DNA of 64,000 nt from Cellvibrionales bacterium UBA7375 (GTDB taxonomy: Bacteria; Pseudomonadota; Gammaproteobacteria; Pseudomonadales; Porticoccaceae). Below are positions 1 through 4,646 of the stretch, one piece after another (the stretch's first letter is position 1; each line of letters opens with the position of its first letter). The stretch covers positions 58,393-122,392 of the forward strand of contig CATAJQ010000031.1 in assembly GCA_949487135.1 (NCBI GenBank). The letters are read 5' to 3'. The translations under genes were made by a program, and so were the position numbers. The notes under the pieces were generated by a model, which saw only the letters and a list, made by a program, of their open reading frames with translations, made no database searches and was not told the DNA's origin.

Positions 1-201
<201 letters not shown>

Positions 202-213
202 CTAATGTATAAA

Positions 214-271
214 CTTCTACCGGTGAAATATGTTTAAAATTTCTTTTAACTTAACTTCACCGGTAAAGAAG
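214..271 (-). promoter_or_regulatory. Imperfect long stem-loop in glnK leader (CTTC-TACCGGTGAA ... TTCACCGGTA-aa-GAAG)
   Basis: 10-bp perfect inverted repeat 218-227 / 256-265, extended by 4 bp across a 2-nt bulge. Confidence 0.6.
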
Positions 272-278
272 TTCTTTG

Positions 279-300
279 TTTAAATCTCCCAAGATTTAAA
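279..300 (-). promoter_or_regulatory. Perfect 9-bp hairpin with 4-nt loop in glnK leader (TTTAAATCT-ccca-AGATTTAAA)
   Basis: Exact inverted repeat read directly from sequence. Confidence 0.6.
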
Positions 301-343
301 GTTGCGCGTTAAATGTATGTTTTCTAATACGCACTGAAGTCAA

Positions 344-360
344 TGCACATAGCGTGCCAA
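344..360 (-). promoter_or_regulatory. Sigma54 (RpoN) promoter for glnK
   Basis: Reverse strand TTGGCACGCTATGTGCA; -24 GG and -12 GC separated by exactly 10 nt; one mismatch to YTGGCACGrNNNTTGCW. Confidence 0.75.
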
Positions 361-452
361 CTTTTTAAAATAATGGAAAACCGCCATCATATAAGTAAAA
401 AAAGCTCAAATTTACTAATAATTAGTGCTTAAAAGTTTGCATCAAAACAATA

Positions 453-469
453 TGCACCATTTTGGTTCG
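453..469. promoter_or_regulatory. Candidate NtrC-binding site
   Basis: TGCACCATTTTGGTTCG resembles the 17-bp NtrC site TGCACYNNNNNGGTGCA with 2 mismatches in the right half; about 93 bp upstream of the sigma54 site. Confidence 0.5.
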
Positions 470-567
470 TTTTTGTTTATCCAAAGCACCTATTTGGTTA
501 GCCTTAAATTACTATGATAAGCCCAGAGAAATTTGCTACAGTAAAACCAGACAAGGAACATATACCT

Positions 568-813
568 ATGAAACCAGAAGACTTTTACCAGCAGTTAAAA
601 GACCAACTCGATTCAGCCATGACTGGCTCTAAAGCACTCAACTCTGAGGCAATGACCTATCTTCAAGCGGCAACCAATAATCTTTTTGATAAATTTGATA
701 TTGTTTCTAGAGAAGAGTTTGACGCGCAAAAAGCCGTTCTTGCTCGCTCAAGGGAAAAAATCACGCAGCTTGAACAAAAACTAGCTGAACTGGAAAAAAC
801 ATTGGCAGGCTAG
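568..813 (+). CDS. ubiK: BMFP-domain protein, ubiquinone biosynthesis accessory factor UbiK (YqiC) family
   Basis: MKPEDFYQQLKDQL...VSREEFDAQKAVLARSREKITQLEQKLAELE, BMFP pattern; start moved to the internal Met. Confidence 0.85.
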   Translation: MKPEDFYQQLKDQLDSAMTGSKALNSEAMTYLQAATNNLFDKFDIVSREEFDAQKAVLARSREKITQLEQKLAELEKTLAG

Positions 814-844
814 TCGGCACCACAGCAATCTAGAGGGACAATGG

Positions 845-2341
845 ATGTCACTTTCTACGGTTAATACCCGCGCCAAGTTAGGCTTGCAGGCACCTCTAGT
901 CTCTGTTGAGGTGCATCTTTCAAACGGATTGCCGGCATTTAACATTGTTGGCTTGCCCGAAGCCGCTGTAAAAGAGAGCAAGGACCGTTTTCGCAGCGCT
1001 ATTATCAACTCAAAGTTTGAATTCCCCAATCGGCGCATTACCGTTAACCTAGCCCCTGCCGAATTACCCAAAACGGGGAGTCGCTTTGACCTAGCCATTG
1101 CCATTGGAATTTTGGCAGCTTCAGATCAAGTACCCAAGCAGCTTATTGAACAACATGAATTTATTGGCGAATTAGCCTTATCGGGAGAACTGCGCGGCGT
1201 TGAAGCTATTCTCCCTGCAGTAATAGCCTGTGCAACTGCGGATAGACATATTATTATCAGCCCACAGAATGCCGATGAAGCCTCATTTGTTGACACTGTT
1301 ACTGTACTTGCCGCAACTAATCTTCTGCAAGTTACCGCCCACCTCCATCAAGTGCAGCCTATAGCATCATGGGGTAAAAAAACTGCAAATAATCATGCAC
1401 AGCAACCTGAGATACGCGATGTGATTGGACAGAAGCAAGCTAAACGCGCGCTAGAAATTGCTGCCTGCGGTGGCCATCATCTGTTGTTGTTTGGGCCACC
1501 GGGCACCGGAAAATCGATGTTAGCCAGCCGCTTAGGGGGTATTCTTCCGCTAATGACCAATCATCAAGCATTGCAGGTCGCCTCTATACTCTCACTCGCA
1601 AATAAGAATTTAGATCGCGATATGCTCGAGCGACCATTTCGCTCGCCTCATCATAGTGCTTCGGCTATTGCTATCGTCGGCGGTGGCAGTTCACCAAAGC
1701 CGGGGGAAATTTCCCTTGCCCATGAGGGAGTTCTATTTCTTGATGAATTTCCAGAGTTTCAACGATCTGTTGTAGAAATGTTACGTGAACCTCTAGAATC
1801 GGGTGAAATCAACATCTCGCGCGCCACAGCACAACTTACCTTCCCTGCCCAATTCCAACTGATAGCAGCAATGAATCCATGCCCCTGTGGCTACATGGGA
1901 AGTGACCGCTGTCATTGCAGCGCAGAAAAAATAGCCCGTTACCAAAGTAAAATATCCGGCCCTATATTGGATCGCATTGATCTCCATATACCAGTAACCA
2001 ATATTAAAAATAAGCAATTATTTCAGACACAGGGACAGCAAGGAGAATCTAATCAGCAAATTAGCCAAAGAGTCAATCGGGCAAGGTCAATACAGATGGC
2101 TAGACAGGGGCTTATTAATTCGAGACTTGATAACCAACAACTTAAAAAAGTATGCCCGCTAAATCAACAACAACAGGATTTTTTAGATCAGGCTATTAAT
2201 AGCTATAAACTTTCTACCAGAAGTTTTCACCGTTTACTTAAGGTTGCGCGAAGTATTGCAGATTTAGCCGAACTACAGTTTCCCGATATTGCGCAGTATC
2301 AAGAAGCCCTTAGTTACCGCAGTCAGTTTAATACCCATTAA
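845..2341 (+). CDS. comM: YifB/ComM family Mg-chelatase-like AAA+ ATPase
   Basis: GPPGTGKSMLASRLGGILP Walker A, FRSPHHSAS, LFLDEFPEF, AAMNPCPCGY. Confidence 0.95.
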   Translation: MSLSTVNTRAKLGLQAPLVSVEVHLSNGLPAFNIVGLPEAAVKESKDRFRSAIINSKFEFPNRRITVNLAPAELPKTGSRFDLAIAIGILAASDQVPKQLIEQHEFIGELALSGELRGVEAILPAVIACATADRHIIISPQNADEASFVDTVTVLAATNLLQVTAHLHQVQPIASWGKKTANNHAQQPEIRDVIGQKQAKRALEIAACGGHHLLLFGPPGTGKSMLASRLGGILPLMTNHQALQVASILSLANKNLDRDMLERPFRSPHHSASAIAIVGGGSSPKPGEISLAHEGVLFLDEFPEFQRSVVEMLREPLESGEINISRATAQLTFPAQFQLIAAMNPCPCGYMGSDRCHCSAEKIARYQSKISGPILDRIDLHIPVTNIKNKQLFQTQGQQGESNQQISQRVNRARSIQMARQGLINSRLDNQQLKKVCPLNQQQQDFLDQAINSYKLSTRSFHRLLKVARSIADLAELQFPDIAQYQEALSYRSQFNTH

Positions 2342-2424
2342 AAACCAATAGCACAGAGTTAATTGATGATTAAATGGTTAAAATTAGTAATAATCTCTTA
2401 ACCAATATTATTTGAGACTCATCA

Positions 2425-2751
2425 ATGCCAAATAAAGAATCGCGTCTTGTGTACTCCACCGAAACTGGTCGTATAAAGCAACAAAGCGAACCCAGCCCAT
2501 CGTTACAATCCGATGGCATTATTCGTATTCGCCGAGAAACTAAAGGCCGAAAAGGCAAAGGCGTTACCACCATCAGCGGATTTGATTTGGAAGCAGACAA
2601 GTTAAAGGCTTTGGCAAAACAGCTTAAAAAGAGCTGCTCTACGGGCGGCACTGTAAAAGATGGCGTTATTGAAATTCAGGGCGATCACCGCGAAACATTA
2701 AAACAGCAATTAGAAAAAATGGGGCACCCCGTTAAATTGGCTGGCGGCTAG
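2425..2751 (+). CDS. yciH: Translation initiation factor Sui1 (YciH family)
   Basis: Sui1 fold motif IRIRRETKGRKGKGVTTISGF...GGTVKDGVIEIQGDHRE. Confidence 0.93.
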   Translation: MPNKESRLVYSTETGRIKQQSEPSPSLQSDGIIRIRRETKGRKGKGVTTISGFDLEADKLKALAKQLKKSCSTGGTVKDGVIEIQGDHRETLKQQLEKMGHPVKLAGG

Positions 2752-4646
2752 TGAGTATGGAATCTAAAACCGCTCTACCATTTGGCACTTGGCCATCATC
2801 ATTAAGCGCAGAAAAAGTTGCCAGCGCTGCACCTAAGATAAATCATATCCAATGCTGCAATCACCTAGTTACTTGGGTAGAAAGCCGACCCAATGAGGGT
2901 GGTAGAAATGTAATTATTGGCCGCAGTAAAAACGGATTGATAAAAGACCTGATTCCAGCACCCTATAGCCACTATAGTCGTGTGCATGAATATGGCGGCA
3001 TGGCTTACGCGTTATCAGAAAATAGTATCTATTTTGTCAACGCTTCCGATCAGCGTATTTACCAGCAACAATTTGGTACTACAACCCCAGTAGCCATTAC
3101 TGAATCTGGCCCTCGCTTTGCCGATTTGATAATCGATAGTGTTAACCATCGACTAATTGCCGTTTGTGAGCAACATGATGAAACGACTGAACCAGAAAAC
3201 TATTTGGTCGGTATTTCACTTGCAGCAGGCAACATGCAGATAACCCCGCTTGCCAGAGGCGCTGATTTTTATGCTTACCCACGAATCAGCCCGGATGGAA
3301 AAAGCCTGTGTTGGATAGAATGGAATCATCCCAATATGCCATGGGACAGCACCCAACTGTGGCAGGCAGATATTCATAACCATTGCCTTGAGAACAAACG
3401 ACTAATAGCAGGAGGCGATGGACTTGAAGCTATATTTCAACCTCAGTGGTCGCCAGACAATCGATTATACTATGTCTCTGATCGCAATAACTGGTGGAAT
3501 ATATACTCTGCCGACCATGGAGTTATTGTTGATATGCCCGCTGAATTTGCTACACCTCTGTGGCAATTTGGCATGTCAACTTATGATTTTATAGACGCCA
3601 ATACAATTGGCTGCCTGTGGACTCAGCAAGGCGTTTGGTATTGCGGCTTTGTGGATATTGCCAAGGGTACATTGCAACCAGTGGCGAGCACCTATAAATC
3701 GATGCAAGCTGCTTGCTGTGATTCCGGTGGCTTATATATGGTGGCTGGCGCGCCCGATATTGCCGATCAAGTGGTTACTGTTTCGCAAAAGGGTATGGTC
3801 GAGGCTATCTATTCCCCCTCAAATCTTAATATAGCCACCGAAGACCTTGCTAAACCAGAATCTATAAGTTTCCCAACGGCAAATAACACCAGCGTTCAGG
3901 CATTTTTTTACCCTCCAACTAATAGTCAATATCGTGGTGAAGACAACCAACTACCGCCCGTTATCGCCATCTGTCATGGTGGACCCACAGGTGCTACTGA
4001 CTGCAGTTTAAATTTAAAAATTCAGTATTGGACGAACAGAGGCTTTGCCGTAGTGGATATCAATTACCGTGGCAGTACCGGTTTTGGCAGGTATTATCGC
4101 GATGCGTTAAATGGCGCCTGGGGGCTAGCGGATATCGAAGACACTCAATACGCCATTAAGTTTTTAACTACACAGCAAAAAGTTGACCCACAGCGATGTA
4201 TTATTCGTGGCAGCAGTGCCGGTGGCTATACAGTATTATCGGCGCTTACCTTCACAGATACTTTTAAGGCAGGAGCAAGCCTTTACGGCATTGGCAACCT
4301 TGAAACCCTGGCTAGTGATACCCATAAATTTGAATCGCGCTACTTAGACAAATTAGTTGGGCCCTACCCTGAACAAAAAGCTATTTATCAACAGCGATCA
4401 CCGATTAATCATATAGACCAACTTAACTGCCCAGTGATATTTCTGCAGGGCTTAGAAGATAAGGTAGTACCCCCCAATCAAGCGGAGCTGATGGTAAATA
4501 GCCTTAAGAAAAAAGGTATTCCTGTAGTTTATGTTAAATTTCCCGACGAGGGTCATGGCTTTCGAAAAGCGGAAAACATTATTCGCGCCATGCAAGCTGA
4601 GCTCGATTTTTATTGCGATGTATTTGATTTGGCGCAAAGGTCCTAA
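2751..4646 (+). CDS. S9 family peptidase (prolyl oligopeptidase type)
   Basis: Beta-propeller N-terminal part and C-terminal hydrolase: CHGGPTGATD, RGSSAGGYTVL, DEGHGF. Confidence 0.92.
   Translation: MSMESKTALPFGTWPSSLSAEKVASAAPKINHIQCCNHLVTWVESRPNEGGRNVIIGRSKNGLIKDLIPAPYSHYSRVHEYGGMAYALSENSIYFVNASDQRIYQQQFGTTTPVAITESGPRFADLIIDSVNHRLIAVCEQHDETTEPENYLVGISLAAGNMQITPLARGADFYAYPRISPDGKSLCWIEWNHPNMPWDSTQLWQADIHNHCLENKRLIAGGDGLEAIFQPQWSPDNRLYYVSDRNNWWNIYSADHGVIVDMPAEFATPLWQFGMSTYDFIDANTIGCLWTQQGVWYCGFVDIAKGTLQPVASTYKSMQAACCDSGGLYMVAGAPDIADQVVTVSQKGMVEAIYSPSNLNIATEDLAKPESISFPTANNTSVQAFFYPPTNSQYRGEDNQLPPVIAICHGGPTGATDCSLNLKIQYWTNRGFAVVDINYRGSTGFGRYYRDALNGAWGLADIEDTQYAIKFLTTQQKVDPQRCIIRGSSAGGYTVLSALTFTDTFKAGASLYGIGNLETLASDTHKFESRYLDKLVGPYPEQKAIYQQRSPINHIDQLNCPVIFLQGLEDKVVPPNQAELMVNSLKKKGIPVVYVKFPDEGHGFRKAENIIRAMQAELDFYCDVFDLAQRS

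Follow-up and report, generated by a model that had tools for sequence, protein, structure and literature searches.

A structured glnK leader in Cellvibrionales bacterium UBA7375 with a putative relic of a porin ribosome-binding-site hairpin

The glnK leader and its promoter

The window, a stretch of 64,000 nucleotides from Cellvibrionales bacterium UBA7375, begins within glnK, the first gene of an operon with the order glnK-amtB-glnK2. The gene occupies C31:58213-58548 and its remaining part runs beyond the window, as do amtB and the second P-II gene glnK2, which were read in locus L082. On the far side of the intergenic region lies the divergently oriented ubiK (Table 1). The sigma54-type site reads TGGCACG-N5-TGC on the minus strand (359-344) and places the predicted +1 at about 333. 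Together with its GG-N10-GC element, the NtrC-type sites upstream and the presence of both rpoN (sigma54, 468 bits) and ntrC (740 bits) in the genome, it has the features of an NtrC/sigma54 promoter. No more than about 85 bp separate the distal NtrC-type site from the ubiK start, and the site may overlap the promoter of that gene, in which case nitrogen status could also influence ubiK. A further conserved element, GATGCAATT-N10..14-(GG/GT)TATCTTT, is found in the gap between amtB and glnK2, 40-90 nt before glnK2 and often after an intrinsic terminator. It is common to the genus and to other genera of the family (L082 ~1296-1473, minus strand; L120-L139, L198, L202, L207) and may represent a promoter, an operator or an RNA element.

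Table 1. Features of the glnK-ubiK region, with positions in the window
Feature	Positions	Strand	Evidence or remark
glnK (P-II), 5' part	1..156	minus	Pfam PF00543, 5.6e-33; start codon ATG at 156-154
glnK Shine-Dalgarno (SD), GGAG	164..167	minus	sequence
P3, GAGUGA-ucuaa-UUACUC, directly before the glnK SD	171..187	minus	putative homologue of the torF-glnK intercistronic hairpin GGGUGGCUUCGGCCACCC
P2, repeat (b), 16-bp hairpin with 2-nt bulge	212..273	minus	z -7.4; 93.8% of cells paired in 4 genomes
P1, repeat (a), UUUAAAUCU-UGGG-AGAUUUAAA	279..300	minus	putative homologue of the torF ribosome-binding-site hairpin; orphan SD GGGAG
P0, probable 5'-terminal stem, UGCGU.../...GCGCA	303..333	minus	begins at the predicted (not mapped) +1
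sigma54-type promoter TGGCACGCTATGTGCA (-24/-12)	344..359	minus	sequence; conservation in the clade and in torF leaders of the genus
NtrC-type site TGCACCATTTTGGTTC	453..468		direct-repeat pair D3; conserved; about -120 to -135 from the predicted +1
second NtrC-type site AGCACCTATTTGGTTA	485..500		32 bp beyond the 453..468 site; conserved
ubiK (BMFP, PF04380), divergent neighbour of glnK	568..813	plus	ORF and Pfam

From the predicted +1 to the start codon the glnK leader measures about 177 nt. Read along the minus strand, the NtrC-type sites (500-485 and 468-453) are followed by the promoter, the +1, the hairpins P0, P1, P2 and P3, the SD and glnK. Two of these hairpins correspond to the inverted repeats which a first-pass annotation had placed between a putative sigma54 promoter and the glnK ribosome-binding site (RBS); both are real, exactly as described and in that location (between 359-344 and the SD at 167-164). 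Repeat (a) reads TTTAAATCT-CCCA-AGATTTAAA on the plus strand at 279-300, with 9 bp and a 4-nt loop, and as P1 precedes repeat (b), or P2, on the RNA strand. In repeat (b), 10 bp and 4 bp over a 2-nt bulge pair 214-217 and 218-227 with 256-265 and 268-271, and this core pairing can be extended to 212-273. The leader as a whole folds at -46.4 kcal/mol, compared with -25.0 ± 3.4 kcal/mol for shuffled sequences (z -6.3, 0/200). P1 alone is a weak hairpin of -4.7 kcal/mol, while none of 200 shuffles matched P2 alone.

P0, which like P3 had not been annotated before, is a probable structure according to the folding model: pairing at the 5' end amounts to 0.81 compared with 0.32 in shuffles (p ~0.02), and across the clade described below the first seven bases are paired at 0.61-0.85, compared with about 0.33 in shuffles. 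A 5'-terminal stem as a rule for the entire genus was rejected, the trend being weak (0.47 vs 0.31); P0 is clear in this clade only.

No terminator-like site, that is, a GC-rich stem followed by a U-tract, was found in 140-580, in agreement with the earlier view that the repeats are not obvious intrinsic terminators. A search of Rfam with positions 1-3000 of the window and ten loci gave no family above its gathering threshold; the best window match, GibS, reached 29.3 bits against a required 115, and sub-threshold matches such as IRES_Bip and SorX were taken as chance. These results also bear on the idea that the P0-P1-P2 segment (~120 nt) is cut off and acts as an NtrC-dependent small RNA. 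Such a role would suit a compact, highly structured segment behind a sigma54-type promoter, but with neither a terminator-like site nor an Rfam match, and with sequence conservation confined to P1, it is most improbable.

P1 and the torF porin gene

Among 50 genomes of the genus, searched with up to three mismatches permitted, P1 occurs once per genome in seven, the present one included (G000, G010, G019, G024, G031, G032 and G045). In all of them it is located in the glnK leader in the same orientation, and its 22 nt are identical in six and differ at a single position in G010; none of the same seven genomes contains the backward control pattern. These genomes form one clade with a support of 1.0 in a glnK-amtB-ubiK-comM tree. 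Between its deep branches, 4-fold degenerate sites differ by 0.30-0.49, and of the leader columns around P1 only 26-30% are invariant, whereas P1 with its 3' neighbours constitutes the sole fully invariant stretch of 22 columns in the clade alignment.

Elsewhere in the genus, readable loci are organized differently. The spacing between ubiK and glnK is about 1 kb, compared with about 0.4 kb in the clade, and the same sigma54-type promoter is followed there by a gene of some 215-223 codons. Its product is a putative porin of the TorF family (TIGR02001, 1.5e-39; PF09694). The sigma54-type site is flanked by ubiK and glnK in clade genomes and by ubiK and torF in the remainder of the genus. TorF (TIGR02001) was detected in 37 of the 50 genomes and in none of the seven that carry P1 in the glnK leader. 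Matches from a GlnK search across genome contigs came mostly from distant proteobacteria and were left out of the comparison. In G048 (L093), the torF frame is broken several times while P1 and glnK are intact, which reflects either gene decay or indel errors of the assembly; as several breaks in one gene are possibly assembly errors, this locus was rejected as an intermediate of gene loss.

Every torF start codon examined is immediately preceded by NNNUCUUGGGAGANNN, a hairpin that contains the SD. In 37 of 37 torF genomes the SD lies inside a covarying hairpin with the core UCUUGGGAGA. This core is near-invariant and pairs 1-3 are essentially fixed, while pair 4 appears as AU, GU, UA or GC and pair 5 as UA, CG, AU or UG. 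Covariation amounts to 0.204, compared with 0.094 ± 0.017 after shuffling and at most 0.097 for slid pairings. A covariance model of the hairpin (R1) yields a single strong site per genome in exactly the 37 genomes with torF plus the seven torF-less clade members, a count that serves as a consistency check since many of the sites were in the training set. P1 conforms to this type, with its near-invariant core and covarying outer pairs; in G000 it is found by the model at 37.3 bits and no other site is reported. With one strong site per genome, the genus-wide search gave no regulon of further P1 copies. Weaker second matches (E ~0.004), away from glnK, are located at G013:C38:17153-17180 and G035:C13:40038-40065. 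In the other genera of the family that were looked at, the torF-type hairpin was not found, and sister genera use SDs such as UUUUGGAGAA without the core.

The shared promoter and position, the UCUUGGGAGA core and the R1 sites in 37 plus seven genomes all indicate that P1 is the homologue, by position and by sequence, of the torF RBS hairpin. The seven-genome clade thus appears to have lost torF and to have kept the RBS hairpin of the porin in the leader of glnK. This origin, together with the absence of a fitting Rfam family, speaks against the riboswitch that had been considered for the leader: the conserved part of repeat (a) would be an SD in a hairpin inherited from the lost porin gene.

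P1 could alternatively be a DNA operator for some repressor, as it is an exact palindrome of 22 bp, preserved letter for letter in six of the seven clade genomes with one mismatch in the seventh. However, the 37 torF genomes retain the RNA pairing with half-sites that differ, and the part that does not vary is asymmetric, includes the SD and lies at a near-fixed distance from the torF start codon. Conservation of half-site letters across orthologous promoters was not seen for an operator centred on ACCGGT or on TTTAAATCT. In view of the covariation, an operator at P1 is very improbable.

P1 does not act as a working RBS of the torF type but is an orphan relic of one. The start codon that follows the core by a few nucleotides in torF leaders is absent at P1 in G000, which has ACAAAGA, and five of the seven clade genomes read ACAAAGA or ACAAAAA there. 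ACAATGA occurs in G010 and G032 only, opening frames of 12 and 8 codons, respectively. Translation from P1 may take place in these two; a leader peptide was rejected as an explanation, the ATG being absent from the other members of the clade. Since the 22 nt stayed nearly unchanged while 4-fold degenerate sites diverged by up to 49%, the orphan hairpin seems to be kept by selection, and its conservation after the loss of torF suggests that it has a job of its own.

P2 and P3

Unlike P1, P2 is only partly conserved. In the four alignable genomes 93.8% of its cells are paired, compared with 54.7% for the best slid control, and the changes in the three relatives comprise one double change and five one-sided ones that retain a G-U pair. 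With four sequences only, the covariation of P2 did not stand out from the shuffle control (129/500). The most divergent members of the clade, G019 and G024, have a different sequence here, which folds at about chance level (z -0.6 and -0.8). The ACCGGT centre, for which a DNA operator had been proposed, changes to ACTGGT or ATTGGT in relatives; the core region there reads ACTGGTGAA, ATTGGTGAA or ACTGGTGAG, and two of the seven clade genomes are devoid of the sequence, which argues against an operator. P2 is best described as a lineage-specific hairpin in the place held by torF in relatives.

The partial retention of P2, and the fact that P1 is a relic by descent, would also be compatible with both hairpins being non-functional remains of the deleted porin locus whose decay is incomplete. 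Decay is distinctly unlikely given the conservation of P1, which is unchanged next to leader columns of which 26-30% are invariant and 4-fold sites that are up to 49% different.

P3 is found directly at the glnK SD, and a hairpin of this type with 6-7 bp stands beside the glnK SD through most of the genus, in most cases as GGGUGGCUUCGGCCACCC or a close variant. Within the clade its arms read GAGUGA/UUACUC, GGGCGA/UUGCUC, GGGUGA/UCGCUC and GGAUGG/UCAUCC. All six pairs are paired in 32 leaders, a figure biased upward because a loose pattern served to choose most of these leaders and some clade loci appear more than once; four of the six pairs are changed on both sides. Sister genera possess strong hairpins at the same torF-glnK junction. 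The genus-wide hairpin at the glnK SD and these junction hairpins together identify P3 as the probable former intercistronic hairpin between the porin gene and glnK.

Possible role of the leader and comparison with known systems

Comparison of the genomes thus shows a leader RNA of several hairpins, in which P1 appears to be inherited from the RBS of the lost porin gene and P1 and P3 to be maintained as RNA hairpins. The earlier proposal of a structured cis-regulatory leader stands as far as RNA structure is concerned, with compensatory changes in the family of (a) and mostly retained pairing of (b) in three relatives; the riboswitch and the ACCGGT operator do not. We consider it likely that both repeats belong to a structured 5' untranslated RNA with which transcripts of the nitrogen-regulated glnK-amtB-glnK2 operon begin, that they were left over after deletion of the TorF porin gene and that they have a function in the leader. 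In this scheme, a TorF-family porin would have been the first gene of the operon and would have been deleted in one lineage, leaving the promoter and the leader hairpins behind. The leader most likely stabilises the mRNA and sets the translation of glnK: P0, P1 and P2 could protect the mRNA from decay beginning at the 5' end, and translation of glnK would depend on the gene's own SD, which closely follows P3. 30S subunits might still be recruited to the orphan SD of P1 without initiating translation, or a different RNA-binding factor might occupy it. For ompA and ermC, an SD has been reported to stabilise the mRNA even when it lacks a start codon (review PMC7509114), and the orphan SD could act similarly. 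That the RBS hairpin outlived its gene and was co-opted by the nitrogen-sensor operon for regulation or stabilisation, be it by docking of 30S subunits without initiation or through the former regulator of the porin, is possible, if doubtful.

New are P3 itself and the origin of P1 as an RBS hairpin without a gene. Studies of bacterial leader elements mostly treat the element and its gene as a unit, whereas here an RBS hairpin can be traced through the loss of its gene, a single genus providing 37 genomes from before and seven from after the presumed event. A hairpin that stays frozen once translation from it is mostly impossible allows its translational role to be told apart from other roles, and opens the question to testing. 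Moreover, a lineage with small genomes would have rewired its ammonium-sensing operon by deleting a porin.

A specific candidate for a regulator in trans that first controlled the porin and now the glnK operon is CsrA/RsmA, encoded in this genome (3.5e-26) and in 42 of the 50 genomes of the genus. The loop and closing pair of P1 hold GGGA, which puts a GGA into a hairpin overlapping the SD as in known CsrA/RsmA targets. The RsmE-type consensus is A/UCANGGANGU/A, and the P1 core matches it at 8 of 10 positions. Some torF leaders (L090 and L091) carry a second, 5'-terminal hairpin at the predicted +1, UGCCU-GACGGA-AGGCA, with ACGGA in a six-base loop; this CsrA-like site belongs to one branch of the genus and is missing in most genomes. 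SELEX gave RUACARGGAUGU as the consensus for CsrA, in which both ACA and GGA are conserved throughout (PMC7652899). Against this pattern (ACA-R-GGA-UGU with the GGA unpaired in a six-base loop), the P1 core UCUUGGGAGA lacks the ACA, the last base of its GGA is paired in the stem and its loop, UGGG, has four bases. Control of P1 by CsrA or a similar regulator is therefore unlikely, but among the alternatives an RNA-binding regulator ranks first.

The orphan hairpin preferred here resembles the SD-sequestering RBS hairpins of translational control in 5' untranslated regions, including RNA thermometers of the fourU type, in that torF leaders carry, just before the start codon, a weak and covarying hairpin whose loop and 3' arm contain the SD. 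In the window, however, gene and start codon are gone and P1 is left on its own, some 120 nt upstream of glnK; a UUUU run opposite the SD, as in fourU-type thermometers, is absent from P1. P3 recalls the stabilising intercistronic hairpins of operons such as puf in its probable descent from a porin-glnK hairpin, and differs from them in being located now in a leader, beside the SD, and in being weaker in this clade. With the SD-dependent stabilisers of the ompA 5' untranslated region, ermC and Stab-SD (PMC7509114), the glnK leader has no sequence relation, and its SD is placed inside a hairpin. Judged from sequence, the likeness consists in a probable stem at the predicted 5' terminus, hairpins in series and an SD which may stabilise the mRNA without being translated.
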